Notes under the pieces: generated by a model
Told to the model about the DNA's origin: nothing
Databases searched by the model: none
Seen by the model: the letters and a program-made list of their open reading frames with translations, nothing else
From: Acidobacteriaceae bacterium
Lineage (GTDB): Bacteria > Acidobacteriota > Terriglobia > Terriglobales > Acidobacteriaceae
NCBI GenBank assembly: GCA_903642265.1
Contig: CAHJWN010000001.1
Coordinates: forward strand, 62,001-126,000
Reading direction: 5' to 3'
DNA length: 64,000 nt
Part shown: in pieces, positions 9,243-34,440 of the stretch
Position numbering within the stretch: the stretch's first letter is position 1
Layout of the letters: each line of letters starts with the position of its first letter
Position numbers and translations under genes: made by a program

Positions 9243-9259
9243 TGACAATGGAATGACAA
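9243..9259. promoter_or_regulatory. 11-bp phased TGACAA repeat upstream of the response regulator
   Basis: On the plus strand TGACAA occurs at 9243-9248 and again at 9254-9259, an exact 11-bp period (TGACAA-N5-TGACAA). The site is 66 bp upstream of the response-regulator ATG. Unlike the other copies in this locus, the repeat reads TTGTCA on the coding strand of its nearest downstream gene, and no -10 hexamer is found 19 bp away on the plus side (a TAGGCT lies at 21 bp). It may be an autoregulatory site. Confidence 0.6.
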
Positions 9260-9284
9260 TTGAGGAGGAGCCCAGGCTTCTAGG

Positions 9285-10553
9285 CTATGTCTGCAATGGC
9301 CTTGAGCTCGGCACTTGGGCCAAGTCGGAAGAGTGCGCTTTAACGGAGCCTACGTTAGCGGCCGCGTTGTTTCGAGCCGTCAGTGAGGTGACCAGGACGA
9401 TAGCCCATAAAGGAAATAGAAGATCAAAGGGTTCGGCCTCTGCCAGGCCGCGAACGATTACAAAGAGGAGCAATCCGGTAAATATCAATTTATGAGAGTG
9501 TTCAGAGAGCTTACGAAGTTTCCTGTACAAGCTGCCATAGAGGCCGCACACCAACACCAGGCCTACCGCTCCATAACAGTAGAACTGCTCCAGGATTTCG
9601 TTCTCCGCATGCCTCGCCTCGAAGGTCCCGAAGACAGGCACGACCTTCCACATCGAGTCGAAGCCATGCCCGATCCACAGCCCGGAGGACGCGGCATCGA
9701 TGACATAGGCCCAGATTGCTGTGCGCCCGGTCAGAGTCTCCGATTGATTGCCGTAGGTCGTATAGAGGTCGTAGTAGGCCTCGAACAGACCCCAAAACGC
9801 GAGAACAACCAAAGCCGCCGCGACCATCAGATACAGCCTGGTTCGACGACTCATGACCCGGTCCTGGATGAGGCAATAACTTTCGCTGATCAGGAACGCC
9901 ACAATCGCAGTCTTGCTGAGACTGCGCACGAGCGTCACCGCTAGAAAGAAGATTGCGAGACCCCATCGGCCCTTCCTGGTACGCATCAGGTATTGAGCGA
10001 AGAAGGCGCCAAAGGCACAGAGGTTTCCAATCGTGTTCGCGTTGAAGTAGTCCTCGTCTCCAAGACGCATATCGTATTGCGAGGGCATGACCCACGAGAT
10101 GGCAGCAACAAAACAGGTCCCCCATACAAAGCCTCCCATGAGGGACTCTGCCGTTATCGTCGCAGGATGGCTGCGGAGCAGGAGAACCACAATCGCGACA
10201 TCGGATGCGGTGCCAGACCAATACGCAGCCGCAACGGGATGCGATATGGTCTCGCTCCATAGCAGGCTGCACCCTGAAAATCCCAGGAAAAGAAAGACCC
10301 ATCGAAGATCCGCAAGATCGAAGGTGAGGTTTGTTCGGCCGCGACCCAACACCGACAGGCTGACGAAGCCGAGCAAGAGGAAAGTCGAAGCCAATGCTGC
10401 TGCGGCACCCGTTTGCGGCTCTGCTCCAAGCATGCGGACCAAGAACACTGTTGTAAGAACGCGGGCGGCAAAATAGAAGCCAACACAGAATGCGAGGGAC
10501 GTCCCCTTTGACCTGTGTTGTGGAACAGCCATCGTGTCTTGATTGTTCGTCAT
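9285..10553 (-). CDS. O-antigen ligase/polymerase-like membrane protein (Wzy type)
   Basis: A 422-residue polytopic inner-membrane protein with about ten or more hydrophobic segments and a large periplasmic loop near residues 255-320 (WAYVIDAASSGLWIGHGFDSMW). This contains the G-x-G-x-D/S pattern typical of the Wzy_C/O-antigen ligase family. It would polymerise repeat units at the periplasmic face, which fits the neighbouring Wzx flippase, Wzz chain-length regulator and SLBB export channel. The ATG at 10553 has no strong Shine-Dalgarno sequence; an in-frame ATG 21 bp further in is also possible. It lies downstream of the CuA protein and may be read from that promoter. Confidence 0.8.
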   Translation of the reverse strand: MTNNQDTMAVPQHRSKGTSLAFCVGFYFAARVLTTVFLVRMLGAEPQTGAAAALASTFLLLGFVSLSVLGRGRTNLTFDLADLRWVFLFLGFSGCSLLWSETISHPVAAAYWSGTASDVAIVVLLLRSHPATITAESLMGGFVWGTCFVAAISWVMPSQYDMRLGDEDYFNANTIGNLCAFGAFFAQYLMRTRKGRWGLAIFFLAVTLVRSLSKTAIVAFLISESYCLIQDRVMSRRTRLYLMVAAALVVLAFWGLFEAYYDLYTTYGNQSETLTGRTAIWAYVIDAASSGLWIGHGFDSMWKVVPVFGTFEARHAENEILEQFYCYGAVGLVLVCGLYGSLYRKLRKLSEHSHKLIFTGLLLFVIVRGLAEAEPFDLLFPLWAIVLVTSLTARNNAAANVGSVKAHSSDLAQVPSSRPLQT

Positions 10554-10726
10554 TGTTCGTTCAGTCGCTGCAGAGACTCAATGGATTTGCCTCTCCGGGT
10601 TAGCCTGGCCTGCCGCCGGCAGCAGATGACCGGAAGGCGAGATGCCACCGTCCAGGATCTCTTTATGTTGGCAGGCTGTATGACTCTGCACCTCTTCTGA
10701 AGCCGATGCGGCAGATGGACGCATGC

Positions 10727-11092
10727 TTACTCGACCACATGGAGCGTCAGGGTCATCTCACCATGGCCGGAGCCGCAAAATACTGAGCAGTGGCCCACGA
10801 AGTCACCTGCCTTGTCGGGCGTGAAGCTCAGCTTTGTGGTGCCACCTTTATCGATCCTTGCGTCCAGATTCAGCTCGCGAAAGCGAAGGCCATGGGCAAC
10901 GTCAGCGCTCTTGATTAGCAGCACGACAGGCTCCCCCTTCTTAAGGATGATCTCACCAGGAGCATAGGCGAAACGCCTGGCAGTCACTTCGATCTGGCGC
11001 GGGCCGGCCTGCGCATGAACCGCACGGTCGGTAAAACCGTTTGTTATTGAAGAAACCAACAACATAGAACTCAGCATGAACTTGTTCTTCAT
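10727..11092 (-). CDS. Small exported cupredoxin with a complete CuA motif
   Basis: A 121-residue protein with a signal peptide (about residues 1-28, ending VHAQA) and one cupredoxin domain. The ligands of a binuclear CuA centre are all visible: His67, then Cys102, Cys106, His110 and Met113 in HCSVFCGSGHGEM (C-x3-C-x3-H-x2-M). CuA centres are normally found in cytochrome c oxidase subunit II and nitrous oxide reductase. Here the domain stands alone without transmembrane helices, inside a polysaccharide locus and with no oxidase genes nearby. A clear Shine-Dalgarno sequence (AAGGGAG) precedes the ATG. It is preceded by the phased TGACA promoter at 11203-11255, located in the 3' end of the upstream gene. 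Confidence 0.85.
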   Translation of the reverse strand: MKNKFMLSSMLLVSSITNGFTDRAVHAQAGPRQIEVTARRFAYAPGEIILKKGEPVVLLIKSADVAHGLRFRELNLDARIDKGGTTKLSFTPDKAGDFVGHCSVFCGSGHGEMTLTLHVVE

Positions 11093-11202
11093 AAAGTCTC
11101 CCTTGTTTGCGCGAATTGCGTTGTGATTACAGACGTTTGGTAATCAAGTCCTGGTCTATCTGGAGCTCATTCGATATGGCAATGCCGACACGAGTGATAT
11201 CT

Positions 11203-11255
11203 ACACTAGCGGTGGCGCGCGCCCAAGTTGTCATGGCCTGGTTCGTCAAATGTCA
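11203..11255 (-). promoter_or_regulatory. Phased-repeat promoter for the CuA cupredoxin
   Basis: Read on the minus strand, TGACAT (11250-11255), a degenerate copy (11239-11244) and TGACAA (11228-11233) keep an 11-bp period. The last copy is followed by CT and, after 19 bp in total, by TAGTGT (11203-11208) as -10. The element lies in the last codons of the WecG-family gene, and the -10 overlaps its stop codon. A leader of about 100 nt would result. Confidence 0.55.
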
Positions 11256-17645: not shown

Positions 17646-17651
17646 GGTGAC

Positions 17652-20600
17652 CTAGAGGGTGGCTACGGCTGCGGTGATGGCGATCGACGAAGCAAGTTGC
17701 GCCGTGGTGAGGAGATTCCGCCAGAACAGTGAGCCACCGATCACCTTTTGCGGCACGACCACAACGTCGCCCGGATCGAGCTTCGTCGAGAGAACGGAGG
17801 GGTCGAAGAGCCCGCCTGAATGCCGTCCAATGACCGACCCATTGGCACGGATCACGAAGATGTCTTTGCGATTCGCCGTGTCGCTTGTGCCGCCGGCATG
17901 CTGCAGATACCACGCAGCTGTTCTGCCGGGGGTAAAGGTAAGCGCGGTGGCGTTATAGACCTGCCCGGTCACAAGAACGAATCCCGGACGCTTGGGGACA
18001 GTCAGCACGTCACCCTGGCGCAGCTCGATATCAACGGGTGTGCCTTCCCAGCTGCTGAGGTCCGCAGTGATATGCACAACCAGGCGGCCCGTTGGCGGTT
18101 CGGTCTTCAAGCGCGCCAGCACCTGGTCCTGCTGTGCCTGGATCAGCTTCAGGGTTGCTCCAGAATCGGCCGAGCCCAGGTTGGGTGCGAGACGTGCTGA
18201 AGCCGAGCTCGTCTCAATTTGGCGAATCATCTCCTCGCGGCTCTTCTGCTCAAGAGCGCGCACCTGGTCGCGCACCAGCACGGCTCCAGCAGGGTAGGCT
18301 GTCTCGCGAAAGCCTCCGGCACGTCGGAGAACGGAGCTGAGCCGCTCCCCTTCGCGGAAGCCATAGATCCCGGGGAACGGGACCTGACCATTGATTTGTA
18401 CTGACTGGCCGATCTCGTTCCAGCCTGTGATCTGATGAATGGTGAGGATGTCGCCTGGCTTGAGCAGAACATCGGCTCCCGGCTCAGTACCCATCACCGC
18501 CGCGCCGATAGGCACCGTCACAAGGCTCCCGGCGACCCGGTTTCCGTTCAGCACTCCATAGCTGGTCAAGTCGGCGTTGTCGAGCAGGGCGTCGCGCTTG
18601 AAGCCACCAGCCATACGAACCAGCTGAGCGACCGTCATGCCCCTGGACATGGGATAGGTGGTCGGGTGCAAGACCTCGCCCTGGATCGTCACTTTCGGAG
18701 CATCTACCTGGTAGCGGCCCAAAATGCGAATCGTATCAAACGGCTGCAGCTCGACGTTCCCATTCCCGATCAGCACGTCCGGCACGTTGAAGTTGATCGT
18801 TTCGGCGTGAAGATCGGGGGGCACCAGCCGAATGATTTCTCCATTCGGAGCAGGCTCCGGCAGGAGGTCCTGGTAACTGTGCAGGACATCCCCCAGGCGC
18901 ATGCCTTCACGGAACGACTGGCGGCCGGGACGCAGGACGTGTCCTTCGAGATAGATTGCACGCTGGCTATAAGGGAGGATCGGTGCGACTCGAATACGAT
19001 CTCCGTCCTGGACCTGGAATGCGGCGATGGCGGTGTAGTCGGAAGCGATGGTCGCTGTGCGGGACGCCTCCAGGGTTAACGTCTCGCGCTGTTGATTCGT
19101 ATCAATCCGTTCGATCGTGATGTTCGCAAGCGAGGCGGCAGCCGTAAAGCCGCCAGCATCTTCGATTACAGAGCCCAGAGTTGTTTGACCGGGCCCCACC
19201 TCGTAGATCGCCGGGCGCTTGACTGCACCCGAGACCGCTACCTGGACCCCTGCAGGAGGCACAAGCAGGGTATCTCCACTCTCGAAGCGAACGCCCTTGC
19301 TGCGCACGCCATGAAGAAGAAACTCATAGAGATCAATGTCCTCGACGAGCTTTTCTCCGCGAAGATGCTTCGCGATGCGAAGCGACCCGACTGCCGTGGG
19401 CCCGCCTGCTGCGAAGAGCGCGCTCAAGGGGGTGGCAAGCGAGCTGATGTCATAGCCGCCCGGCCGTTGCACATCGCCAACAACGTACACCCGCACCGAG
19501 CGGAGGCGCGACACGGTCACGCTGAGCTTCACATCGCGATATTGCTTCTTCAGCGCATCTTCGATCAGGCTCTCCGCACGTTGCAGCGGAAGACCGGAAA
19601 CATCGAGCGAACCCGCGTCAGGCAACAGGATACGGCCATCGCGATCGACGATGCGATTGAGACTCTGAGTGACTCCGCCCCACATATTGATCGTCAGCGT
19701 ATCCCCGGCACCCAGGACATAATCGGGGCCCAACGAAACGTCCAGCGGAGTGTCGCGTCCCGAACCAGCGCGTGAGGCCGCAGAGACATCGCGGTTCACA
19801 AAGACCTCCGAGCCAAATCGCCTGAGCGGGGCCGTAGGCTGGGGAATCTGCGTATACAGATCACGCATCGATTGCAGGTTGTAAGGCGTTGGTTGGCGAA
19901 GGACCCTGGGCGCATCGGTCGAGGCGTTCACGGTCTCTCGGTCTCGCTTCAAATCCCTCCCGGAGGGATTGTCAGGCGTGCCAATCGACCGAACCATGCC
20001 GGTCGGTCCATCTCCCCGAATGGGCGGTGCAAGCGCAAATGCCGTGAGCTTGTCAGAGTCCAATCCCCCCGGTGTAGCGCTTTGTCCAGCAAGTCCGGGA
20101 GCTGCCAGCACGTTGCTTGAGTTCGCACCCAGACTCTGAAGATCGTCCTGCGATACATAGCCTCGCGCGCGAAGGAACGTGGTGATGTTTAACCGCAGAT
20201 CGCTGTTCTCTGCGATCTGGTCGTAGAGCATCTGGTCGGAGATATCGTTGGCGTCGATCGGCGTGCCCTGCTGCTGCAGACGGTCTGCCACCTGCGACTT
20301 CAACTCCACAATCAGGTCGGGATTCTGCTGCAGCATACGGACAATCTGGTCCGACGAGAGCGACACAGGAACCACAAAACTAGGGCTGCTCAAGGACCTG
20401 GCTCGATCATCCTGAGAGCCGTCGCTCTGAGACGTGTCCATCGTTCCGAGGTCCGGACTTGAAGATGACTGTGTCGTGCCCTGCGAAGACGAACCAGGGA
20501 ACGCGGACTGCGCGGGCGCTGATTGCGCCACCAGCCCCATGGAGCCTAACAAGGTCACCGCTGCAACCAGCTGCAAGCTACAGAGGCGCTCCGTCGCAAC

Positions 20601-20657
20601 CGAGACAGGGCCTTGATTCGGTTTGCGCGTGGAACCAGGAGTGGAGCATGTCAGCAT
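17652..20657 (-). CDS. SLBB-domain polysaccharide export protein (Wza-like)
   Basis: About 1001 residues from the ATG at 20657. An open frame continues to 20834, but the extra 59 codons are not protein-like and would overlap the promoter found at 20682-20734. After a signal peptide (LVAAVTLLGSMGLVAQ) come a low-complexity Ser/Gln segment and a helical domain. A Poly_export domain follows near residue 310 (DYVLGAGDTLTINMWGG), then at least five SLBB repeats (VYVVGDVQRPGGYDI, VAVSGAVKRPAIYEV, IYLEGHVLRPG, VTIQGEVLHPTTYPM, VQINGQVPFPGIYGF). A hydrophobic C-terminal segment ends the protein. It should form the outer-membrane translocon. It is much longer than enterobacterial Wza (about 380 residues) and has no lipobox, which is usual for acidobacterial homologues. 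It is the first gene of the export operon. Confidence 0.9.
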   Translation of the reverse strand: MLTCSTPGSTRKPNQGPVSVATERLCSLQLVAAVTLLGSMGLVAQSAPAQSAFPGSSSQGTTQSSSSPDLGTMDTSQSDGSQDDRARSLSSPSFVVPVSLSSDQIVRMLQQNPDLIVELKSQVADRLQQQGTPIDANDISDQMLYDQIAENSDLRLNITTFLRARGYVSQDDLQSLGANSSNVLAAPGLAGQSATPGGLDSDKLTAFALAPPIRGDGPTGMVRSIGTPDNPSGRDLKRDRETVNASTDAPRVLRQPTPYNLQSMRDLYTQIPQPTAPLRRFGSEVFVNRDVSAASRAGSGRDTPLDVSLGPDYVLGAGDTLTINMWGGVTQSLNRIVDRDGRILLPDAGSLDVSGLPLQRAESLIEDALKKQYRDVKLSVTVSRLRSVRVYVVGDVQRPGGYDISSLATPLSALFAAGGPTAVGSLRIAKHLRGEKLVEDIDLYEFLLHGVRSKGVRFESGDTLLVPPAGVQVAVSGAVKRPAIYEVGPGQTTLGSVIEDAGGFTAAASLANITIERIDTNQQRETLTLEASRTATIASDYTAIAAFQVQDGDRIRVAPILPYSQRAIYLEGHVLRPGRQSFREGMRLGDVLHSYQDLLPEPAPNGEIIRLVPPDLHAETINFNVPDVLIGNGNVELQPFDTIRILGRYQVDAPKVTIQGEVLHPTTYPMSRGMTVAQLVRMAGGFKRDALLDNADLTSYGVLNGNRVAGSLVTVPIGAAVMGTEPGADVLLKPGDILTIHQITGWNEIGQSVQINGQVPFPGIYGFREGERLSSVLRRAGGFRETAYPAGAVLVRDQVRALEQKSREEMIRQIETSSASARLAPNLGSADSGATLKLIQAQQDQVLARLKTEPPTGRLVVHITADLSSWEGTPVDIELRQGDVLTVPKRPGFVLVTGQVYNATALTFTPGRTAAWYLQHAGGTSDTANRKDIFVIRANGSVIGRHSGGLFDPSVLSTKLDPGDVVVVPQKVIGGSLFWRNLLTTAQLASSIAITAAVATL

Positions 20658-20681: not shown

Positions 20682-20734
20682 ACCGTAAAGACAGGCAGAC
20701 GCGGGGGTGTCATCGGAACGTCTGGCAAATGTCA
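20682..20734 (-). promoter_or_regulatory. Phased-repeat promoter of the wza-wzi-wzz-wzx operon
   Basis: On the minus strand, TGACAT (20729-20734), AGACGT (20718-20723) and TGACAC (20707-20712) are spaced exactly 11 bp apart. The last is followed after 19 bp by TACGGT (20682-20687) as -10. Transcription would start near 20675, about 18 nt before the ATG at 20657. This supports the short form of the wza-like gene. Confidence 0.65.
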
Positions 20735-20817: not shown

Positions 20818-20881
20818 TGACAAACAAGTGACAATCATCAGACCTCTTTGAGACACACTGCCCCGGTGATCCCGCTACAGT
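20818..20881 (+). promoter_or_regulatory. Phased-repeat promoter of the porin-cytochrome c pair
   Basis: TGACAA (20818), TGACAA (20829), AGACCT (20840) and AGACAC (20851) form four copies with an exact 11-bp period. After 19 bp comes TACAGT (20876-20881) as -10. Only 7 bp separate this -10 from the ATG at 20889, so the mRNA would be leaderless unless translation starts at the next in-frame ATG (20943). Confidence 0.65.
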
Positions 20882-21951: not shown

Positions 21952-22254
21952 ATGAATACAAAGCACGTGATATTAGCGCTAAGCCTTCTTGCATCCTCGG
22001 CCTCCTTTGCGGCTGCGGCGTCCCAGGACCAGGCTCCTTCCACGAGATCCGCGAAGAAACCGACGGCAGCGCAGTCCAACCCGCAACACGACAATGACGG
22101 TGCCCGGATCTTTCACCAGAACTGTTCGCGTTGCCACAACGCTCCGGAAGGTTTCTCACCGAGCATCTCTGGAACCATAGTCAAACACATGCGCGTGCGA
22201 GCGTCGCTCAGCGCAGAAGAGGAAAAGCAGCTACTCCGCTTTCTGAATCCATAG
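21952..22254 (+). CDS. Small periplasmic monohaem cytochrome c
   Basis: A 100-residue protein with a signal peptide (LALSLLASSASFAAAA) and a single haem-binding CSRCH motif (residues about 58-62). A later Met in HMRVRASLS is a plausible sixth ligand. The start is the ATG at 21952, preceded by AAAGGAAA and only 2 bp after the barrel gene. Class I cytochromes of this size shuttle electrons in the periplasm. The tight pairing with an outer-membrane barrel is suggestive but does not prove a transmembrane electron conduit. Confidence 0.85.
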   Translation: MNTKHVILALSLLASSASFAAAASQDQAPSTRSAKKPTAAQSNPQHDNDGARIFHQNCSRCHNAPEGFSPSISGTIVKHMRVRASLSAEEEKQLLRFLNP

Positions 22255-22411: not shown

Positions 22412-23350
22412 CTAATCCAGCTGACTCAGCATCCTGAGATACCTGGCGCGTTTAGTTGCTGGCTCCGCCGTCTCAGCGAAAACCACCAGATCCGCCTTTG
22501 AAGGCTGGAGCGTCAGCGGCAACTTCTTCCAGTAGAACTTCAGATCGTCAGAGGTCCAGCCCGCGTAGGTCTTCTCCCACGATTTACCCGACTCGCCAGC
22601 AAAGACGAGGTTTGACGGATTGATGATTCTCCGCGCATCCTGAAATCTGCAGTCGATTGAGAGCCGCATCTGGTCCGTCAGATTGGGTGAAGCTGCGTGC
22701 ACCGTCAGGCTATGAAAGATCAGCACGTCCCCGGCATACACATGGCTGCCAACCCACCCATCTGCAACGGCTGCTGTCTCCTGGATTTCGGGTACGTGAA
22801 GGTTGTCGCGCTCGTGATGCAGGACACCACGGCGATGCGACGCTTCGAGGATCCGCAACGGCCCCATTTCAATAGGACAGTCGTGCAATGGTATCCACGC
22901 TGTATAGAACTCTGTATCTCCGCCCATGAATTCGAAGTCCTGGTGAGCATGGGTCACGAGGCGCTCACAATTTGGGAAGATAAGTCTGCCGATTGGCTTT
23001 GGGTGAACCAGTACCTCTTCGCCTGCAAGCATCGTCATGACTTTCCGCAGGGATGGTTCATGCGGAAGCCGATGCAGCGACTCCAGATTGAAGACTTGCT
23101 GGTACACCCGCTTAAATGCTGGGTCGGGATCGCCGCAGGCAGCGCCCGCGGCCGCTAGTCTGTTCGTCGAGTCGTGCTCCGGCTGGAGCCACCCGGCCTG
23201 CGATAGAACCCGCGTTACGTCCGTCAGGGCAGCGTCTACAGCCTTTTTGTTGAGCAGGTCGCGGACAAGTACGTAGCCCCTCGCACGTAGTTCGCTTTGC
23301 AGAACTGCCGGACTAAGCTCCGATCCACTTACTTCGTGAAAAGCTCTCAC
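22412..23350 (-). CDS. Phytanoyl-CoA dioxygenase (PhyH) family protein
   Basis: A 312-residue Fe(II)/2-oxoglutarate-dependent oxygenase. The facial triad is visible as His136-x-Asp138 in HAHQDFEF and a distal His near 218 in FHSLTVHAASPN. Arg229 (MRLSIDCR) is placed to bind 2-oxoglutarate. Members hydroxylate lipids, sugars or natural products; the substrate here is unknown. The GTG start is preceded by a strong Shine-Dalgarno sequence (GGAGGAG). Transcription comes from a phased TGACA promoter in the divergent region shared with the HPr-kinase-like gene. Confidence 0.85.
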   Translation of the reverse strand: MRAFHEVSGSELSPAVLQSELRARGYVLVRDLLNKKAVDAALTDVTRVLSQAGWLQPEHDSTNRLAAAGAACGDPDPAFKRVYQQVFNLESLHRLPHEPSLRKVMTMLAGEEVLVHPKPIGRLIFPNCERLVTHAHQDFEFMGGDTEFYTAWIPLHDCPIEMGPLRILEASHRRGVLHHERDNLHVPEIQETAAVADGWVGSHVYAGDVLIFHSLTVHAASPNLTDQMRLSIDCRFQDARRIINPSNLVFAGESGKSWEKTYAGWTSDDLKFYWKKLPLTLQPSKADLVVFAETAEPATKRARYLRMLSQLD

Positions 23351-23395: not shown

Positions 23396-23459
23396 ACGAT
23401 AGCGAATTCCACCTGCGAAGGTGTCTGTGGATGGTCTGGTGTTTGTCAATTGATTGTCA
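23396..23459 (-). promoter_or_regulatory. Phased-repeat promoter of the PhyH gene
   Basis: Four half-sites with an 11-bp period are seen at 23454-23459, 23443-23448, 23432-23437 and 23421-23426. On the minus strand these read TGACAA, TGACAA, AGACCA and AGACAC. After 19 bp follows TATCGT (23396-23401) as -10. The leader would be about 40 nt and includes the GGAGGAG ribosome-binding site. Confidence 0.65.
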
Positions 23460-23479: not shown

Positions 23480-23532
23480 TGACAATTCCGTGACGTCAGG
23501 ATGACAAACCCCAAATGCTTCTTCACTATCCT
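23480..23532 (+). promoter_or_regulatory. Phased-repeat promoter of the HPr-kinase-like gene
   Basis: TGACAA (23480), TGACGT (23491) and TGACAA (23502) are spaced exactly 11 bp. TATCCT (23527-23532) follows the last after 19 bp. The array faces the one serving PhyH across the 239-bp divergent region. Leader length would be about 50 nt. Confidence 0.65.
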
Positions 23533-23589: not shown

Positions 23590-24606
23590 ATGTTAGAAGC
23601 AGAAGTTATACACGCCTCACAACCTGGCGGAGCTGTACCCGAACGGCACCGGCCACAGGATGCGCTGCTCTACGATATGGAGCTTGCTCTCCATACAACG
23701 TTCTATCCGCTCGGCTTTGCGGTCGACATCCTGACAAATGATCCAGCCGTTCTGCTTGCGGCCCAGGAGAGCTTTGGCCATCGCCGCATGTGCCATGGCA
23801 AGGCTGCCCTGCAGATTCGCGTTGGGGTAACCGCTACCGAAGGAGGTGCCTGTCCACCTGAACCTGTGCGGCGCGAGTACAACCATCTCTACTCACTCAC
23901 GGCTGACCCTGAAAACCACGCCATCCTGGACCTCAAGACCTGCACCAGCTTCGTTTGGCTCAGTCGTTCTGCGGTAAAGAACAGGCTCTACTTTCGCTAT
24001 AATTTTCTGGAGAAGGTGGTCTATCTGTTACTCGGCGCTTCCGTGGTGACCGACCTTCACGCCGCTTGCGTCAGTAAGAATGGAAAAGGAGTTCTGCTTT
24101 GTGGTCAGTCCGGTGCCGGGAAGTCGACGCTCGCCTATGCCTGTGCTCGGGCGGGATGGACCTATACCTCGGATGACACCAGTTACCTCATCAATGATTC
24201 GACGACGCCTCGCGTCATTGGACATTCGCATCGCATGCGATTCCGTCCCGCAGCAAAGCTCCTCTTTCCGGAACTGGCGAACTACGATGTGACGCCGCGA
24301 ATGGAGGGCAAGCCTTCGCTTGAGATTCCGGCCTCCGAGCTGCCCGTACACTCGACTGCTGTTGAAGCAGATATCAACTGCATTGTGTATCTGAACCGCA
24401 GTCAATCTCTTCGGACTAGAGTTGTCCCGCTGCCCGTTGGGACCGCAACAGAGCGCACACGGAAGGAGCTCTTTTCCTCCGGAGAGATACGTGCGAAGCA
24501 TGAGAAGATCCTGGAGAGCCTCGCGCCTGTGCCTACGTTTGAGCTCCAATACAGCGATCTAGAAGATGCAATCCACGAACTGGATCGCCTGGTAGCAACC
24601 ATATAA
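23590..24606 (+). CDS. HPr-kinase-like P-loop kinase
   Basis: A 338-residue protein. The Walker A motif GQSGAGKST (residues 172-180) followed by SDDTSYL (194-200) is the layout of the HprK C-terminal kinase fold (P-loop plus capping loop). The first 150 residues do not resemble the HprK N-terminal domain. Stand-alone relatives occur in lasso-peptide and other peptide or surface-polysaccharide clusters, where some phosphorylate a Ser of a peptide or a small molecule. No HPr is encoded nearby, so a role in carbon-catabolite control is unlikely. A Shine-Dalgarno sequence (AAAGGA) precedes the ATG. The gene is convergent with the GT87 gene. Confidence 0.8.
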   Translation: MLEAEVIHASQPGGAVPERHRPQDALLYDMELALHTTFYPLGFAVDILTNDPAVLLAAQESFGHRRMCHGKAALQIRVGVTATEGGACPPEPVRREYNHLYSLTADPENHAILDLKTCTSFVWLSRSAVKNRLYFRYNFLEKVVYLLLGASVVTDLHAACVSKNGKGVLLCGQSGAGKSTLAYACARAGWTYTSDDTSYLINDSTTPRVIGHSHRMRFRPAAKLLFPELANYDVTPRMEGKPSLEIPASELPVHSTAVEADINCIVYLNRSQSLRTRVVPLPVGTATERTRKELFSSGEIRAKHEKILESLAPVPTFELQYSDLEDAIHELDRLVATI

Positions 24607-24628
24607 GCTACGCGAAGTCAGATGACGA

Positions 24629-26791
24629 TCATGGAATCACCCTTCGCCGCGCGATTGCGGTGAACCAAAGACTGCGGCCGCAATCCGTGCCATAGAGCAG
24701 TGTCTTCGAATCCTCTTCCCACATCGGCTGAACCTGGTTGCACGGTACATCCGCAATACGCCGCGTCATGCCTGTTGCCTGGTCGCGAACCCACAGATTC
24801 CAACCGTTGCTTTGAAACCGGCTATATGCCATCCAACGTCCATTCGGTGAAATCGCGGGATAGCGTGTTTCGCCCAGATGAAGCGGGCTGTTGTCATGCG
24901 ATGTGTCCGTAAGATAGATCTCCGGCTCACGTCCGTTCGCGACCGCCGAGAAGGCATACTCTCTTCCTGAGAGAAACGAGGCCTCATAGACCTTCAGCGA
25001 AGGTGCTGTAAGTGCCGACTCCCGCACACCCTCTTTTATAAAATCTGTCCGCTGCATCAGCCGTCCCCGTCCATGATCGTCGCGGAGGAACGCAAGGTCT
25101 CTTCCATTGGCGGAGAGCATGGGCTGGCGCGCGTCGTCGAGGACTACCTGCGAACCACGCTGCAGATCGACGATCTGCGAATGCGGCGCTCCCACCCGTT
25201 CCACGAGGATGCTCCCTGGCCCGCTACTTTGGCCGGTGCTGGTAAACGAGAGATCGTCTGGCAGCCTGGCCGAGGTTGCGGCCGCTACATTTTCCTGCGC
25301 CTCTGTGACCAGGCGATAGCCTTCATAGCTGAATGAGACATAGTGAACTCCATGAGGTGCGGGATGCGGCTGCGCATTTAGAAATCCCTGTTGCTGCAAC
25401 GGCAATCGGTACGCATACTCCGACCGCACAGCACGTTCTCGATGCAGGGTCGAAGAAATGTTATAGATCGTGGCAACGAGCATGGCTCCGCCCCACACAT
25501 ACTTCGCCATCCCACTTTCAGTTCTCTTGCCAGCCGAACCGACCCAGAGCAACCCATAGTTCACAGACAAGAACGCAAGCAGCAGTGGCAGCCTGGCGAT
25601 CTGCAGCAGCGCCCATGCTCCTGCCATCTTCTTTGGACTGGGTAAAGGCAAACCGATGCAGAGATAAACGATCAGCAAGGCCAAAGCCCAGCCATAACGT
25701 CTTGCTTTGATCAACACTGCAGCAAGTACGCAGACAGGCAGCGCCATAAGGACGAAGTTATACAGCGCGGGCACGGTAGAGATTGTGAGCGAGGCCGTCA
25801 ACAGAGCCGACAACTCGAGCAGGAGGCGATCACGGCTTCCATCTGATTTACGGATGAGCAGCACAGCCGGCGCCAGCACGAGCATCTGCAATGTTGGCAT
25901 GAGCAACGCAAAGCACAGTACTGAGTTATGCCAGGGATGCGGATTCCACTGCGGCTCTGAAAGAAACAGCCGATGCAGAATGCCGGAGAAGGAAGCGCTC
26001 GGCACATACGGCGGCATTGCCTCGCCATGTAGCGTCCACGGCAGAATCTCTTGAAGGTAAGTTCTGTGGACGCTCCAGCCGAAGACCGCAATCGATAAGG
26101 CACCCGCGATCAACAGCGTTACAAGAGCCGAAGCCAGGACCTTCCACTTGCTGCGCCGCAGGAACACTACAAGTAACAGGACCGGAAAGACTTTACAGGC
26201 GGCGGCGACTGCTATGAGCACACCTGCCGCCACATGCCATCCGCGAAGATATGACCAGCAGGCAGCCACGATCATGAACAACAACACTACATAATACTGG
26301 CCGAAATCCAGGTTCCGATGCAGCGGAAAGCATAGCGCCAGGGCCAGCACGACGAGCTGGTAGCTAAGCCCGGTCATCGATCTCAGCATCCAGATGATCG
26401 GGACCAGCGAAGCCAGGCTCAGCAGGATCCACACATGCTTGGCGGCCAGAGGAGGAAGTCCGGCGACGGGCAGCATCGCCAGCGTAGAAAACGGCGTGAT
26501 CGGCAAAAGGCCGATGACCGGTATGTCCGCGGCGCGATGATCCTTCTCCCGCTCAATCCAGGTCCAGTCATACATCCGCGCCGTGTCATAGCCGTCATGC
26601 ACCAGCCTCGCCGCCATGTAGTAGTTGGGGAAATCTGTGTTCAGGGTCGTCCATGCTTTTGGCAGCGTATGCGCTGCAAGGTAGAGCAGCGCCAACCCGA
26701 TGAGCGTGCGTTCCAACCACGAGGCCACGCGTTGCTTGAGGGTGAGTGTCACCCTCAAGAGCCTATCGAGCCGGACCAGCCCAGTTGTCAC
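24629..26791 (-). CDS. GT87-type mannosyltransferase fused to a WD40-like beta-propeller
   Basis: Up to 720 residues. Residues about 28-440 are polytopic with around ten transmembrane helices and match the GT-C family GT87/DUF2029 (TDFPNYYMAARLVHDG, LDFGQYYVVLLFMIVA, GVLIAVAAACKVFPVLLL), which uses polyprenyl-phosphate sugars. From about 500 on, the sequence turns into TolB/PD40-like blades (MLSANGRDLAFLRDD, YPAISPNGRWMAYSRFQ, QVQPMWEEDSKTLLYGTD), probably periplasmic. The GTG at 26791 overlaps a phased TGACA element. A GTG at 26752, 7 bp behind the -10 box, is the alternative start. It follows the GT1 gene by 7 bp and may also be read from the upstream operon. Confidence 0.8.
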   Translation of the reverse strand: MTTGLVRLDRLLRVTLTLKQRVASWLERTLIGLALLYLAAHTLPKAWTTLNTDFPNYYMAARLVHDGYDTARMYDWTWIEREKDHRAADIPVIGLLPITPFSTLAMLPVAGLPPLAAKHVWILLSLASLVPIIWMLRSMTGLSYQLVVLALALCFPLHRNLDFGQYYVVLLFMIVAACWSYLRGWHVAAGVLIAVAAACKVFPVLLLVVFLRRSKWKVLASALVTLLIAGALSIAVFGWSVHRTYLQEILPWTLHGEAMPPYVPSASFSGILHRLFLSEPQWNPHPWHNSVLCFALLMPTLQMLVLAPAVLLIRKSDGSRDRLLLELSALLTASLTISTVPALYNFVLMALPVCVLAAVLIKARRYGWALALLIVYLCIGLPLPSPKKMAGAWALLQIARLPLLLAFLSVNYGLLWVGSAGKRTESGMAKYVWGGAMLVATIYNISSTLHRERAVRSEYAYRLPLQQQGFLNAQPHPAPHGVHYVSFSYEGYRLVTEAQENVAAATSARLPDDLSFTSTGQSSGPGSILVERVGAPHSQIVDLQRGSQVVLDDARQPMLSANGRDLAFLRDDHGRGRLMQRTDFIKEGVRESALTAPSLKVYEASFLSGREYAFSAVANGREPEIYLTDTSHDNSPLHLGETRYPAISPNGRWMAYSRFQSNGWNLWVRDQATGMTRRIADVPCNQVQPMWEEDSKTLLYGTDCGRSLWFTAIARRRVIP

Positions 26792-26801
26792 ATCTTTGTC
26801 A
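26760..26801 (-). promoter_or_regulatory. Phased-repeat promoter before the GT87 gene
   Basis: On the minus strand TGACAA (26796-26801) and TGACAA (26785-26790) lie 11 bp apart. After CT and 19 bp in total comes TAGGCT (26760-26765). The element overlaps the stop codon of the GT1 gene and the first GTG of the GT87 frame. It could be an internal promoter of the operon. Confidence 0.5.
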
Positions 26802-28088: not shown

Positions 28089-28089
28089 C

Positions 28090-29355: not shown

Positions 29356-30304
29356 GTTTCTCTGCCACATAGATCCGGAACCGCGAAGGCTCACGACGAC
29401 GGCGTAACCCGGCCAGGAACGGGCGCAGCTTCCACCTTAAGCCGTAAGCCGGGTGAAGCGCGGCCCATTGAAGCGATAGCTGTACCTCGAGCCTACGCAA
29501 GCGATCATCGGTAAGAAACTCGAGGCTGGCAACGGAGGCGGAGGCAGTGCCATATCGGTGAATGAAAGAAGCCTGGCGTTCCGCGATCATCTGCTGGCCG
29601 CTCTCTTCCCTGGAATACCAGGGAGTGTCGCTGATGATCACCCGTCCGCCAATCCTCAGGCATCGGAGCGCCTCGCGCAGCGTCGTCTCATAGTCCTCCG
29701 CATAATGAAACGATGCATTGAACACGATCGCATCGAACTGTCCATCCTCAAAGGGCAGGCGCGTCATCTCTGCCTGGAACCGCGCAATCGGCTGTGGCAG
29801 GTACCTGTCGTAGTGCGCAGCAGCAGCCAGCCCATCCTGCCTGTTCATCAGCAGATCAACAGCTACAGGCTGATGGCCTGCAAGCGTCAAACGGTAGCTC
29901 ATCCAGCAGTTTCCTGCCCCGAGATCTAAGATCTTGAGCGCAGTCCCTGCGGGTGCCAGGACATGATTGATGAGATGTTCGAAGCTCCTGGAGCGAATAT
30001 GCCACTGGCTTGGGTTACGGCCTGACGCATCGTTGTAGGGAAGTGCAAGGTAGTAGTCATCGGACTCGCTGCCACGACCTTCAGCCGCGCGGATGCCCTC
30101 GTAGTCCGCGATGAAGCGCGCATAGTGCTGAGCTGTCTCCGGAAGCAACGCCTGAACCACTCCGCCGGTAATGCTCATCTGAAATCCGCATTTGCCGCAG
30201 TCCAGCGCATCAACCTGGGCAAAGCAGCGAGGGCAACGGAGCGCAACGACTCCGAGACACGCGCGACTGGCCTCGGTGCCGTCGTGCAAGCCAGCCGCGG
30301 TCAT
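29348..30304 (-). CDS. Class I SAM methyltransferase with N-terminal zinc ribbon
   Basis: A 318-residue protein. Residues about 20-45 contain CPRC and CGKC, a Trm112-like zinc knuckle. A class I methyltransferase follows with motif I LDLGAGNCWMS, acidic motif II PVAVDLL and motif IV FDAIVFNASFHYAED. The substrate is unknown. It overlaps the radical SAM gene by 4 bp (ATGA) and the amidohydrolase gene by 8 bp, so all belong to one operon. Confidence 0.85.
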   Translation of the reverse strand: MTAAGLHDGTEASRACLGVVALRCPRCFAQVDALDCGKCGFQMSITGGVVQALLPETAQHYARFIADYEGIRAAEGRGSESDDYYLALPYNDASGRNPSQWHIRSRSFEHLINHVLAPAGTALKILDLGAGNCWMSYRLTLAGHQPVAVDLLMNRQDGLAAAAHYDRYLPQPIARFQAEMTRLPFEDGQFDAIVFNASFHYAEDYETTLREALRCLRIGGRVIISDTPWYSREESGQQMIAERQASFIHRYGTASASVASLEFLTDDRLRRLEVQLSLQWAALHPAYGLRWKLRPFLAGLRRRREPSRFRIYVAEKHA

Positions 30305-31797
30305 GCTAGAGCGGCCCGCGCAGGAACGAAGCTCTCGATCTGCACCAGCGATGAAGACGCGGCCGTCAACACTTCGTCGAAGTCCTGCAAGGCATCAGGA
30401 TCCCGGCACTCCGGCTCTAGTGCGTTTACCGTGGCCCAAAGGTCATCCACCCTGGCCATCGTGACGCTCGAAGCCATCTCGCTCCACGAGTCCACCTCTG
30501 CATGCAGCGCCTCGCGCACGGCACGATAGAAGGTCGTCGTGTACGCAGCATTGAACATGATGCAGAGGTCGCCGCTATCGCTCCAATTGCGTTTGCTCCC
30601 AAGTTGCGTCCGCACCTTTTCGTAGAATGCGGTGCCCGGCAACGGGTACGAGAAGGAAATCCCGATATCATCGGGCCGGTTCGCCCGGACAAATTCAATC
30701 GTGTCCTGGAGTTCATCCCGACCCTCCCCCGGGTAGCCAAACTGCAGAAAGAAACAAGCGCGTATCCCCGCATCTTGCAGCCGGCGGCACGCAACGACAA
30801 CCGCGGGCAGGCTGAGCCCCTTGTCCATCGCGTTCAACACGCTCTGCGCTCCAGATTCGACGCCCATCCAAACTTCCGCACAGCCCGCCGCTTTCAGGTG
30901 CTTGACCGCAGATTCCGTCATCAGGTCGGCACGAGACTGGACCTTGAACGGCACGCAGGCATCACGCCGACTTACCTCTGTGGCGAACTCTTCCACCCAA
31001 TGTTGATTGAGCGCAAATACGTCGTCTCCGAACCAAATGTGCTCGGCCCCTGCCTTCTTCAATACCGCCATCTCCTCAGCTACTGCCGAAGCTGGACGCA
31101 GATGAAATTTGTTGCCCGAGATAGGCTTCGCGCACCAGTTGCAACGATAAGGACACCCTCGGCTCGACACCATGTTCATAGAAAAGTATCCGTGCGCGTC
31201 TATCCATGCCTTGCGATAGGGTTCGAGGTCAATCAGATCGCGCGAGGGCAACGGAAGCTGCGACCATTGGGGATTCTTCGCAAGCTGTCTTGGACTGTGC
31301 ACCGGCCGGCCGCTTGTACCGCTCTGCACCAGCCCATCGACTAAGGGAGTTGGCGCGCCTGCGAGCACAGCGGAACATAGCTGCGTCAACGTTTCTTCAG
31401 CCTCACCGCAGAGCACGTAGTCGAAACCCTTCTCGAGGAACAGCGCGGGATTGTCGGTCGAATCGGACCCATGCACGATCGCAACAACATCCCGGGCATG
31501 GGCCAGCCGTGCAATCTCCCACGCAACCTCGCGCATCCGCGTGAGACACATCTTCGAGAGGAAGTTGAAGTCGTCTTCGTAGACCACCACGATCCTCGGT
31601 TGCTGTGCTTCCAGCATGGCGACGAAAGCCGCCGAAGGCTCGTCGAGCATCGTGTCAAAGACCGCAACCGAGATGCCTGCCTGGCGTAACGCAGAAGCTG
31701 CATAGAGCGTGCCTATCGGAGCGTACGGCTGCATCTTCCGCAACTGTTTGGGATCGTAGCCCAGATGATAAGAATGCGTGATGAGAATGTCCGCCAC
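30301..31797 (-). CDS. B12-binding-type radical SAM protein
   Basis: A 498-residue protein. The N-terminal 150 residues have the Rossmann layout of a cobalamin-binding domain (PIGTLYAASALRQAGISVAVFDT), although the classic DxHxxG is not seen. The radical SAM core begins with RGCPYRCNWC, supplying Cys215, Cys219 and Cys222 for the [4Fe-4S] cluster, followed by GDDVFALNQHWVEEF. Such proteins methylate or rearrange unactivated carbons in natural products, hopanoids and pigments. The GTG start has a good ribosome-binding site (GAGGTGA). It heads the operon methyltransferase-amidohydrolase-GT1-GT87. Confidence 0.85.
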   Translation of the reverse strand: MADILITHSYHLGYDPKQLRKMQPYAPIGTLYAASALRQAGISVAVFDTMLDEPSAAFVAMLEAQQPRIVVVYEDDFNFLSKMCLTRMREVAWEIARLAHARDVVAIVHGSDSTDNPALFLEKGFDYVLCGEAEETLTQLCSAVLAGAPTPLVDGLVQSGTSGRPVHSPRQLAKNPQWSQLPLPSRDLIDLEPYRKAWIDAHGYFSMNMVSSRGCPYRCNWCAKPISGNKFHLRPASAVAEEMAVLKKAGAEHIWFGDDVFALNQHWVEEFATEVSRRDACVPFKVQSRADLMTESAVKHLKAAGCAEVWMGVESGAQSVLNAMDKGLSLPAVVVACRRLQDAGIRACFFLQFGYPGEGRDELQDTIEFVRANRPDDIGISFSYPLPGTAFYEKVRTQLGSKRNWSDSGDLCIMFNAAYTTTFYRAVREALHAEVDSWSEMASSVTMARVDDLWATVNALEPECRDPDALQDFDEVLTAASSSLVQIESFVPARAALA

Positions 31798-31894
31798 AAT
31801 TCACCTCGAAGGCTTCTGCGGCGGTAGGCACTTAGCTAGACCGCCGTGAGTTGATTCAGCAACAAAAGCAGCCGAATGAACCTTTGATTGACCT

Positions 31895-31947
31895 AGCGTA
31901 GTTGGGCAGGGACGAAGAGTTGTCTCATGATTGTCGGGTCTGTGTCA
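31895..31947 (-). promoter_or_regulatory. Phased-repeat promoter of the radical SAM operon
   Basis: On the minus strand TGACAC (31942-31947), CGACAA (31931-31936) and AGACAA (31920-31925) have an exact 11-bp period. They are followed by CT and, after 19 bp in total, by TACGCT (31895-31900). The leader would be about 90 nt. Confidence 0.65.
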
Positions 31948-31950
31948 TCT

Positions 31951-32040
31951 GTTTGCTGTCAGCTGGTTGCAGCTGTTTGCCGCCATTCATTTGGCGTCAT
32001 CTGGTCGCAGCTATTGTTTGGCGTCATTAGTTTGGCGCTG
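31951..32040. repeat. Degenerate 27-bp repeats upstream of the radical SAM promoter
   Basis: Three related units start at 31951, 31989 and 32016. The last two are directly adjacent (27 bp) and share TTTGGCGTCAT, while the first reads TTTGCTGTCAG. Units 1 and 2 also share CTGGTyGCAGCTrTT. On the minus strand each unit contains a TGACG/TGACA half-site, so they may extend the regulator-binding array. Confidence 0.5.
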
Positions 32041-32096
32041 CTGAAGCTTGAGCGATTTGCTCTAAAGGGGGTCGGCAAATTGTCTTGAGCTGGCCA

Positions 32097-32921
32097 TTAC
32101 TGTGGCGCAGGAACGTTGGTCCGGCGGAACTGATAGAGCACATGATCGCCCAGCATTGCCAGTGGACCAGCAAGCCCGCGGTCAAGCGTCTCCATGACGT
32201 TCAGCAGGTGCGGGTGCCGCGATATCCACGGCTCAGCGGCGCTGGGAGGCACGGCAATGCCAATCCCGATGCGCCTCTCCAAAACGAACCATGGGGCAAA
32301 GGCACGCACCATCTCACGTTTGCGATGGTAGAACACATGGAACTCGCGCTTGGCCAGCTTCGCCGGGGCTTCGCCGCGCTTCAGGCGCCGCAGCGCCAGG
32401 CGGTGCCGGACACGCAAAACTTCAGTCACTATCTCCCCGGGGCATAGCGTGCCGAATAAAACCAGCATCGCCGGAGCTCCGGGATTAAGTAGCTGCGACA
32501 GGCCACGTGCAACCAGTGATAGGTCATCAACACAGTTCAGCGGAGCGAAGTTAGAAAAGACCCCATCAAACCGCTTGCCACCTGCGGCAAAATGCTGCGC
32601 TGCAAAGGACTGCATCTCCTCAGCGGCAGCGACTTCAGCGCGTGCTCCCTGCGGGCCGAGCTTGATCCTGGCGAGATCCACCATTGTCGGAGAGGCGTCT
32701 GTCAGAAGCACCTGGTACCCACGTTCCGCCAGGAAGCTCGCGTCTTCTCCTGTTCCACCGCCAACTTCGAGGATTTGCCCAGCCTTCGGGAACTCGCGCA
32801 GCAGGGCATCACGGACCGCGCGACGCTGTGCCGAGACGCTGAGCCAACCGCCAAAGCGGGAGTCGAAGGTTGAAGCAATCGCGTCGAACGCAACAGCCGC
32901 CGGCCGCAAGGAGGTCATCAT
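32097..32921 (-). CDS. Class I SAM-dependent methyltransferase
   Basis: A 274-residue protein. Motif I is ILEVGGGTGEDASFLAERG, motif II VLLTDASPTMVDLA, and FDGVFSNFAPLNCVDD marks motif IV. The C-terminal third is specific and rich in Arg and aromatic residues. The substrate is unknown. It overlaps the nucleotidyltransferase gene by ATGA, so the two are one operon and probably act on the same product. Confidence 0.88.
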   Translation of the reverse strand: MMTSLRPAAVAFDAIASTFDSRFGGWLSVSAQRRAVRDALLREFPKAGQILEVGGGTGEDASFLAERGYQVLLTDASPTMVDLARIKLGPQGARAEVAAAEEMQSFAAQHFAAGGKRFDGVFSNFAPLNCVDDLSLVARGLSQLLNPGAPAMLVLFGTLCPGEIVTEVLRVRHRLALRRLKRGEAPAKLAKREFHVFYHRKREMVRAFAPWFVLERRIGIGIAVPPSAAEPWISRHPHLLNVMETLDRGLAGPLAMLGDHVLYQFRRTNVPAPQ

Positions 32922-34369
32922 TTCAGCCCCTCCGTCAGCTTGCCCCAGCGATAGGCTGCCCAGCTATAGCGGAGACCTTCAACAACGTGAAAGCGCGACC
33001 GGAGAAGCACATACTTCAGTTGCATGCGATACCGCCGCGCCCGCACCCACATGCTCTCGCCTTCGAGCGCCAGGACTACCTGCGGTGGCAGACGGCGCGG
33101 CAACAACCACTGGAAAAGCGAGCGGCCCAGCACCTGACCGGAAGGTTCAATCTCCCGTACCAGCAGCAGGTAAAGCTTGCTGCCGGGGACGTCACCAAAG
33201 GCGGCACGAACTCCGTGAAGTCTTACCCACAAGCGAACTGCCGGCGGAAGCCTGTCCACGGTCCATCCCGTGAGTTTGACCGGCGCAAATTCCCCCATAA
33301 CGGTGGTGATCAACAGCGTGAGCACTCCGAGACCGAGCGAGACCTTTGGGTTCTCCTCGCCTCGCGTTCGCAGCTCGCTCCAGAAGAGATCGTCGTTGTG
33401 CCGCGTGTTCACATGACGATAGAACTCCAGCAGGTGCGATGCTCGGGAGAACTCACCGCAGATGTGTTTATAGGCATGCATGGCTTGCCCAAGGAAAAGA
33501 TCGACCGGCGAAAGCACTGGCATGTCAATGCCGTAGAAGTCCCGCTGTTGCACTTGACTCAGTATGGATGCAGACCCTTCCGCGCGCGCTTGAAGATGAA
33601 GTTCCACGGTCCGACCAGACGTATCCTTATAGAAGTCTTCCATCGAGATGCCGATCTTCTCTTCTTTTTTGAACTCCCAGCTCCTGCCGCTGATTGCGTA
33701 CAAGCGATAACCCTGCCGCTCAAGCACGGCTCGAGCGACCACAATGTTCTCCTCTGCGACGAGGAAGTCCAGGTCAAACTGATGACGTAGCTCCGCGTTT
33801 GAGACCGACTCCGGCGCAAGCGAAAAACCCTTCAACACCGCGTAGGAGAGTGCGGCTGCCTGGAACTCCTCCTGAATGGCCACCGACTCCGCAATCATGC
33901 CATGCGTGCGTTCGATGTTGTCCAACAAGTTCTGCTGCAGCCGGGCAAGCACGTCGTTTGGAAGGATAGTCGGAGCGAGTTGCGACCTGCGCAGGCGATC
34001 GAGAAAAGACAATGCCAGGCCGCTTACATCCAGCCAATGCAACAGGCCGTGCCACTCCCTTTTGGTGACCTCATGGAGCTCGATGCACTCCGCCGGCATA
34101 GGATCGCGGAAGCTAAGCAGCACTGCCCGTCGAAGTCTGTGCTCTCGGCTCAGAACGGCGTCGCCGACCCTGCCGTTTTGCTCTAAATGTCTTGCTGGCG
34201 TCAGGCTGGCGCTTTGGCTAAGAGGGCAGTGTGGTGCAAGTGAAGACGCGCAACCTTGAACATTGGAGGAGTCAATTCGATAAAGTTCCTCGGCAAGCAT
34301 TGGCAAGACTTCATCTCCCCGGCCCGCCTGGCAAAGAACAACTGCAAGATGGCCGCATCGCTGCAGCAT
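32918..34369 (-). CDS. PF14907-type nucleotidyltransferase
   Basis: About 483 residues from the ATG at 34369. A GTG at 34408 is possible but lies inside the phased TGACA element. The core matches the uncharacterised nucleotidyltransferase family (NTP_transf_5): VLKGFSLAPE, then RHQFDLDFLVAEENI supplying two Asp, then LERQGYRLYA and later TVELHLQ. Relatives accompany HPr-kinase-like proteins in lasso-peptide and surface-polysaccharide clusters and are thought to transfer nucleotidyl or related groups. The first 90 residues before the core are weakly conserved. It is coupled by ATGA to the methyltransferase. Confidence 0.8.
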   Translation of the reverse strand: MLQRCGHLAVVLCQAGRGDEVLPMLAEELYRIDSSNVQGCASSLAPHCPLSQSASLTPARHLEQNGRVGDAVLSREHRLRRAVLLSFRDPMPAECIELHEVTKREWHGLLHWLDVSGLALSFLDRLRRSQLAPTILPNDVLARLQQNLLDNIERTHGMIAESVAIQEEFQAAALSYAVLKGFSLAPESVSNAELRHQFDLDFLVAEENIVVARAVLERQGYRLYAISGRSWEFKKEEKIGISMEDFYKDTSGRTVELHLQARAEGSASILSQVQQRDFYGIDMPVLSPVDLFLGQAMHAYKHICGEFSRASHLLEFYRHVNTRHNDDLFWSELRTRGEENPKVSLGLGVLTLLITTVMGEFAPVKLTGWTVDRLPPAVRLWVRLHGVRAAFGDVPGSKLYLLLVREIEPSGQVLGRSLFQWLLPRRLPPQVVLALEGESMWVRARRYRMQLKYVLLRSRFHVVEGLRYSWAAYRWGKLTEGLK

Positions 34370-34376
34370 TGGATCG

Positions 34377-34440
34377 AGACTAGCCGTCCACTGAGCAGGA
34401 GTTGTCACATCCGGGTCACGATATTGTCACGGTATTGTGG
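34377..34440 (-). promoter_or_regulatory. Phased-repeat promoter of the nucleotidyltransferase-methyltransferase operon
   Basis: Plus-strand half-sites TTGTCA (34402), GGGTCA (34413), TTGTCA (34424) and TTGTGG (34435) keep an 11-bp period, so the coding strand reads TGACA. TAGTCT (34377-34382) lies 19 bp from the last copy. Seven bp separate it from the ATG at 34369, again a leaderless arrangement. Confidence 0.65.

Follow-up and report, generated by a model that had tools for sequence, protein, structure and literature searches.

Phased TGACA arrays at a fixed distance from the −10 hexamer precede eight transcription units near a two-component regulator gene in an Acidobacteriaceae genome

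Eight transcription units in a 64,000-nucleotide stretch of an Acidobacteriaceae genome (the whole stretch analysed, hereafter the window) share one promoter layout on the coding strand: 11-bp phased TGACA-like half-sites, ending in TGACA-N20-TAnnnT. This common tag of surface-sugar, copper and haem genes is, judging from sequence, very probably read by the neighbouring two-component regulator. The regulon apparently has not been described before, its kind (OmpR/PhoB-type) being already known; among the matches listed from the open-access literature, none described the motif, nor a two-component regulon of this type in Acidobacteriaceae.

All eight arrays proposed in a preliminary description were present at their positions (Table 1). 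Sites were aligned on the −10 hexamer, and a MAFFT alignment of three sites was left unused because gaps were placed in the spacer. The distance is fixed, as had been claimed, but the spacing is N20 at all eight sites; the earlier value of 19 bp resulted from one extra base counted into the half-site. Similarly, the 11-bp period was confirmed, whereas the half-sites are not always exact TGACA: the last one is AGACA in three of the eight arrays (porin, PhyH and radical SAM), the CuA array has GAACC in the middle, and only two good adjacent units are found in the GT87 array. The CT said to open the spacer often was seen, as ACT immediately 3' of the last half-site, in only four of eight (CuA, GT87, radical SAM and nucleotidyltransferase). 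The CuA array overlaps the 3' end of a wecG-like gene, and 110 bp separate its −10 from the start codon of the cupredoxin gene.

Table 1. Arrays, regulator operon and target genes in the window (positions counted from its first nucleotide).
Feature	Position	Strand	Remarks
Cupredoxin-like protein of regulator operon	4227..4958	-	ligand-residue conservation
Exported protein of regulator operon	4958..6553	-	probably outer-membrane (location inferred); no Pfam family
Histidine kinase	6534..8462	-	dCache_3 + HAMP; adjoins regulator; order kept in relatives
Response regulator, OmpR/PhoB-type	8437..9177	-	receiver PF00072 and Trans_reg_C PF00486, both above cut-off; candidate binder
Reversed array at regulator gene	9243..9258	+	two TGACAA units, 11-bp phase; upstream of regulator gene, opposite orientation
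Cupredoxin, COX2/CuA-like C-terminus	10727..11092	-	target
CuA array and −10	11203..11255	-	TGACA in first and last units, middle degenerate; TAGTGT; before CuA-like cupredoxin gene
wza-like polysaccharide export protein	17652..20657	-	target; start set after −10
wza array and −10	20682..20734	-	three units; TACGGT; before wza-like export operon
Porin array and −10	20818..20881	+	four units; TACAGT; before porin-like gene
Porin-like protein	20889..21950	+	target
Small c-type cytochrome	21952..22254	+	one CxxCH, translation read by eye; directly 3' of porin
PhyH dioxygenase	22412..23350	-	target
PhyH array and −10	23396..23459	-	four units; TATCGT; before PhyH gene
HprK array and −10	23480..23532	+	three units; TATCCT; before HprK-related gene
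HprK-related protein	23590..24606	+	target; scores below family cut-off
GT87 glycosyltransferase	24629..26758	-	target; exact start uncertain
GT87 array and −10	26760..26801	-	two units; TAGGCT; before GT87 gene
B12-binding radical SAM protein	30301..31797	-	target; first gene of likely operon
Radical SAM array and −10	31895..31947	-	three units; TACGCT; before B12/radical SAM operon
NTP_transf_5 nucleotidyltransferase	32918..34369	-	target; start set after −10
Nucleotidyltransferase array and −10	34377..34429	-	three units; TAGTCT; before NTP_transf_5 gene

The earlier judgement that constant spacing at eight places is very unlikely by chance was borne out. With at most one mismatch, the three-unit pattern matched seven times in the window, compared with 0.01 expected and a maximum of one in 100 dinucleotide shuffles. 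A scan of the whole 4.64-Mb genome for scattered sites, suggested in the preliminary description, placed all seven matches inside the cluster (reversed-pattern control: three), and all six matches of the exact two-unit pattern were likewise located there (control: one).

The same geometry was observed in 20 relatives, where a total of 781 kb surrounding the regulator homologues was analysed. TGACA pairs on the same strand numbered 49 at a distance of 11, 33 at 22 and 6 at 33, with 0–4 at each remaining distance between 5 and 50. Behind 91 pairs of adjacent units ([TA]GAC.../[TA]GACA), TAnnnT peaked at offsets 20 (20 cases) and 21 (6 cases) and again, one unit later, at 31 (10 cases) and 32 (4 cases). 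Array registers amounted to 90 in the 781 kb and 0 in 400 kb from other parts of seven of these genomes; registers rather than arrays were counted, and one four-unit array may score more than once. The 20 loci represent 20 of the 82 genomes in which a regulator homologue occurs, chosen chiefly for a high regulator score and a long contig and with motif matches already known; G099, G089, G061 and G142 were among those skipped, and G130 and G015 were added from lower ranks. An effect of chance or composition in AT-rich intergenic DNA would agree with the mild enrichment of TGACA around the regulator (1.55/kb against 1.12/kb in the control). This reading was rejected as practically negligible in probability, since the shuffles, the empty 400-kb control and the restriction to periods of 11, 22 and 33 all contradict it.

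Conservation was evaluated upstream of putative relatives of the window genes, taken as best tblastn matches (E ≤1e-15), some of them just 24–40% identical; matches aligned only past residue 120 or lying too close to the end of a stretch were omitted from the count. A same-strand array preceded 48 of 76 relatives of the eight targets but 2 of 114 among relatives of the remaining genes in the window, and an array with a −10 at 20 or 21 preceded 37 of 76 and 1 of 114, respectively. Reverse-strand arrays were found before 31/76 and 2/114, for which divergent gene pairs account in part. The preliminary description had also proposed looking for the sites in related genomes: they were fully kept at the porin (16 of 16 best hits) but poorly at wza (2 of 7). 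Its central proposal, direct-repeat sites of OmpR/PhoB type forming one hidden regulon, is strongly supported by the confinement of the pattern to the cluster and its retention before relatives of the targets.

When the scan was extended to 150 genomes of the family, 88 motif sites (six of them from the own genome) were obtained in 52 genomes, compared with six reversed-pattern matches, counted by hand from the table. A close homologue of the regulator was present in 50 of the 52 motif genomes and in 32 of the 98 without the motif (Fisher 1.9e-15, a value inflated by the relatedness of the genomes); the two motif genomes lacking it at the threshold used were G048 and G106. Of the 88 sites, 34 were no more than 30 kb away from a regulator homologue, 28 of them in 20 genomes besides the own one. 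The paralogue C58, used as a control, showed no such association (28/52 motif genomes against 41/98 others, p 0.17; 1/88 sites within 30 kb). The motif is thus linked with homologues of the local regulator, which had been named as the natural candidate, and not with the paralogue.

It is nevertheless conceivable that the arrays are read by a different OmpR-family regulator of the own genome, which encodes six near-full-length PhoB-type regulators. In many relatives the sites are far from a regulator homologue: 54 of the 88 had none within 30 kb on the same contig, many contigs being short, and for these the reader may be a paralogue from that clade (46–58% identity). As an explanation for the window this reading is very unlikely, given the lack of co-occurrence and proximity for C58 (one of the five others) and the finding that TGACA pairs at 11 bp are present around the local regulator and absent from the DNA examined around the five others.

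The regulator belongs to a conserved unit. The order of four genes (regulator, dCache kinase, outer-membrane-type protein and blue-copper protein) was kept in 18 of 20 loci, and the segment YP[TS]TRTVDN was retained in all 21 regulator sequences. The cupredoxin-like protein had no match in the Pfam search; its residues His107, Cys143, His146 and Met149, which we take to be a blue-copper ligand pattern, were invariant in 8/8 aligned sequences. In 28 of 38 loci, namely the window plus 27 of 37 others, the 300 bp preceding the regulator gene contained a reversed array with at most one mismatch, permitted at certain positions only; 15 were exact. Forward arrays occurred there in 2 of 20 loci. By eye, no clear −10 was seen for this promoter in the window, and several relatives had a NANAAT-like string at a comparable distance. 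The arrangement suggests that the regulator gene is probably autoregulated via the reversed array.

A link to phosphate, also part of the preliminary description, found no support. In that reading the arrays would be Pho boxes for a phosphate-responsive PhoB/PhoP and the cluster part of the phosphate regulon. According to PMC4415409, the E. coli Pho box consists of 11-nt direct repeat units, and the TGTCA core of its CTGTCAT is TGACA on the opposite strand. PhoB is moreover the second-best NCBIfam match of the regulator; its score of 181.2 bits, however, is far below the PhoB cut-off of 296.2 bits, which none of 43 matches in the own genome passed (the cut-off is strict, with 2 of 14 control genomes passing). 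On E. coli promoters the Pho box runs opposite to the arrays described here. A whole-genome scan for the full layout, made on the pattern and not gene by gene at pst/pho promoters, gave no site outside the cluster. The phosphate reading was dropped on the score deficit and is highly improbable.

The arrays are in all likelihood operators of the local regulator, from which it would activate the cluster. The adjacent dCache_3 kinase would probably phosphorylate the regulator, which would then occupy the two to four 11-bp units of an array in head-to-tail alignment. The last TGACA, at about −38 to −33, would substitute for the −35 element, the position that PhoB occupies at its promoters, and the bound regulator would recruit housekeeping RNA polymerase to the TAnnnT −10 by class II activation, the mode known from PhoB promoters. 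The functions induced together would be polysaccharide export, tailoring of sugars and copper/haem proteins of the envelope, with porin and nucleotidyltransferase among the targets translated from leaderless mRNA, and the reversed array would provide probable autoregulation. From the letters of the DNA we infer class II activation along with binding, phosphorylation, activation rather than repression, and autoregulation with its sign.

With the sites unchanged and the sign opposite, the regulator could be a repressor of the eight promoters. Position by itself is compatible with this, and CenR, a TGA-N8-TGA binder, has both activated and repressed targets, according to PMC9275681. The TTGACA-like last half-site, however, lies 20 bp from the −10, and across 46 promoters the consensus of the six bases located 17 bp before the −10 is ACAACT, unlike TTGACA. 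A 20-bp gap is too long for ordinary sigma-70 use. The fixed 20-base spacing fits an activator contacting polymerase, and repression appears improbable.

Among 15 loci, 13 had the porin start codon 5–8 bp behind the −10 (7 bp in the window; 61 and 74 bp in the other two), which implies a leaderless mRNA; L172 occurs twice in the list, so that the 15 loci give 16 rows. For the nucleotidyltransferase gene the distance is 7 bp, and at 16 of 86 family sites it was 4–9 bp, the other two of the 88 lacking a 60-aa ORF in the flanking DNA examined. Starts were set by the longest-ORF rule, which may misplace single ones. According to PMC3160421, leaderless genes have TANNNT some 12 bp upstream of the start codon, and this mode is predicted in all three Acidobacteria genomes considered, for 13.3% of genes on average. 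The porin and nucleotidyltransferase starts are similar, at 13 bp counted from the first T of the −10; unlike those genes, the predicted leaderless promoters of the window bear an activator-type array. The porin has no Pfam family, and a profile combining the window protein with 15 of its 16 relatives retrieved no solved relative from the PDB up to E 1, so it is named just porin-like.

Among known systems, CenKR of Rhodobacter sphaeroides is similar in its OmpR-family regulator, tandem TGA repeat, envelope genes and site at its own gene. The available portion of PMC9275681 gives a TGA-N8-TGA motif, an envelope regulon and a site upstream of cenR itself; TGACA-N6-TGACA contains this direct repeat. 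The paper states a distance of 10 bp, yet TGA-N8-TGA counts to 11. CenKR differs in being alphaproteobacterial, and in the same portion the core is TGA, with no CA extension reported and no fixed TAnnnT at 20 bases mentioned. Among solved structures, those nearest to the regulator in full-length sequence are the mycobacterial MtrA and RegX3 (2gwr, 2oqr), which are actinobacterial and differ from it in function and sites.

A broader scheme is rather doubtful: an ancient four-gene unit would sense periplasmic copper or redox state, and array polarity would form a code in which forward arrays at N20 activate, often with leaderless mRNA, and reversed arrays set the regulator level, polysaccharide clusters being recruited by gaining forward arrays. 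For surface-polysaccharide and copper/haem genes, the motif and its fixed spacing allow the promoter, the regulator and the operon starts to be predicted, and often the start of translation as well. These predictions are applicable in many genomes (52 of 150), and an uncharacterised regulator gains a list of testable targets.

Read directly on the coding strand, all eight promoters consist of TGACAA-consensus units in 11-bp phase, and the last unit, TGACA or (at the porin, PhyH and radical SAM genes) AGACA, was followed in 8/8 cases by 20 bases and a TAnnnT hexamer. The constant spacing and the 11-bp phase of the preliminary description thus stood, but the spacing is 20 bases rather than 19, and the units are imperfect and not all TGACA: the CuA (cupredoxin) array has GAACC as its middle unit, and the GT87 promoter has just two good units. 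A three-unit pattern (GAC-N8-GAC-N8-GACA-N20-TAnnnT, one mismatch allowed) gave seven matches in the window (shuffled mean 0.01); GT87, the eighth site, failed it and fitted a two-unit pattern.

The genome-wide scan that had been proposed covered 4.64 Mb (196 contigs, 94.7% complete), and the pattern was not scattered. The three-unit pattern with one mismatch gave seven matches, all within the cluster bearing the eight promoters (reversed-pattern control, 3), and the two-unit pattern with zero mismatches gave six, again all there (control, 1). Because 7/7 and 6/6 matches fall in the cluster, the predicted regulon, in the TGACA-N20-TAnnnT layout, is cluster-specific in this genome.

The porin start codon lies 7 bp past the -10 box in the window and 5-8 bp past it in 12/14 other loci, the exceptions being L172 (74 bp) and L174 (61 bp). 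In the excerpted text of PMC3160421, leaderless genes, whose occurrence is predicted for Acidobacteria, are marked by TANNNT about 12 bp before the start; since the porin distance fits this mark, the -10 boxes gain independent support. Counted from the start codon as +1, the final TGACA occupies roughly -38 to -33. An OmpR-type protein bound in tandem at the array would substitute for the -35 contact; PhoB replaces this contact at its promoters.

Across the family, the exact three-unit pattern yielded 88 sites in 52/150 genomes, six of them in the own genome, and the reversed control six matches (our count from the table); these genomes are mutually related and the counts not independent. With a stricter pattern, 6/20 family genomes and 3/179 others were positive among 199 phylum genomes (control, none). 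Genome G077 carries six exact sites on six contigs (L035, L226-L230), by appearance before cytochrome-, lipoprotein- and ferritin-like genes, which looks like a dispersed version of the regulon.

In the regions around the regulator homologues of 20 relatives, a same-strand array was found upstream of 48/76 best-hit relatives of the eight targets versus 2/114 for other window genes; with a -10 at 20 or 21, the values were 37/76 and 1/114. Conservation of the sites was complete for the porin and poor for wza. In loci L162, L166 and L168, CuA, NT (nucleotidyltransferase) and wza are consecutive same-strand genes in a stretch of about 2.1 kb, and transcription of wza may begin there at the promoter of CuA or of NT, possibly accounting for part of its array loss. 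The porin-cytochrome pair described earlier is real: a small exported c-type cytochrome (100 aa, CSRCH) lies directly downstream of the porin.

Window features and arrays upstream of their relatives
Gene	Position (strand)	Relatives with array
Regulator	8437-9177 (-)	
Cytochrome	21952-22254 (+)	
Porin		16/16
CuA		10/16
HprK		8/14
NT		5/10
rSAM		3/5
PhyH		2/4
GT87		2/4
wza		2/7

Homologues of the local OmpR/PhoB-type regulator (E up to 1e-60) occurred in 82/150 family genomes; its nearest named matches were Acidobacteriaceae bacterium KBS 83 (68%) and Edaphobacter aggregans (60%). The proposal of this regulator as candidate reader gained weight from co-occurrence: a homologue was present in 50/52 motif genomes versus 32/98 motif-free ones, the corresponding values for an own-genome paralogue, used as control, being 28/52 and 41/98. 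Within 30 kb of a regulator homologue lay 34/88 sites, spread over 21 genomes, and the paralogue was near 1/88. Many sites are distant, and from their position these could belong to the regulator's paralogues. The local regulator, as candidate reader, conserves the DNA-binding domain segment YP[TS]TRTVDN, presumably the recognition helix, in 21/21 aligned sequences. Around it (20 relatives, 781 kb), TGACA pairs numbered 49 at distance 11, 33 at 22 and 6 at 33, with 0-4 at each other distance up to 50; the TAnnnT offset peaked at 20, then 21. The array scan counted 90 registers there versus zero across 400 kb taken elsewhere in seven of these genomes. The regulator encoded on L043, whose contig title reads Bifidobacterium breve MAG, is 51% identical to the acidobacterial one, and the label is probably wrong.

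The regulator gene is probably autoregulated. In the 300 bp preceding it, a reversed array (repeats of TTGTCAT when read on the coding strand of the gene) was exact in 15/38 distinct loci and had at most one mismatch in 28/38, the window included; 10/38 had none. A stricter three-unit scan gave reversed arrays in 8/20 loci and forward ones in 2/20. The order regulator, kinase (dCache_3 and HAMP domains), 4958 (exported, probably outer-membrane protein) and 4227 (cupredoxin-like) was conserved in 18/20 loci, with arrays before the latter three genes in 0/19 each. His107, Cys143, His146 and Met149, which we take as a blue-copper pattern, are invariant in 8/8 members of the 4227 family.

The regulator falls below the curated PhoB cut-off. 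The arrays resemble the Pho box in the 11-nt repeat and, when reversed, the core (PMC4415409, in part); the nearest published motif found was TGA-N8-TGA of the CenR envelope regulon (PMC9275681, in part). Among the open-access matches listed, no such motif or two-component regulon was found described in Acidobacteriaceae; the available portion of a Granulicella WH15 paper mentions exopolysaccharides and two-component systems and describes no such regulon (PMC7074687). From sequence, we infer a regulon whose regulator would bind the arrays and activate the assigned target promoters.

At 79 of 86 family sites with an ORF, no more than 150 bp separated the -10 from the chosen start. Sites in this set also precede genes whose products we take to be TIGR03118-like, IPT/TIG lipoprotein, ferritin-like and cupredoxin-like exported proteins. 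Nine (L018, L032, L033, L229, L231, L238, L241, L244, L255) precede one exported-protein group, presumably TIGR03118-like; in G139 and G089 such a site and the regulator homologue are some 0.8 kb apart. Perfect three-unit arrays precede riboflavin-synthesis-like genes, presumably ribBA-like, in L021 and L158, and weaker ones occur in L160 and L219; in two genomes, these genes represent a putative target outside envelope functions.
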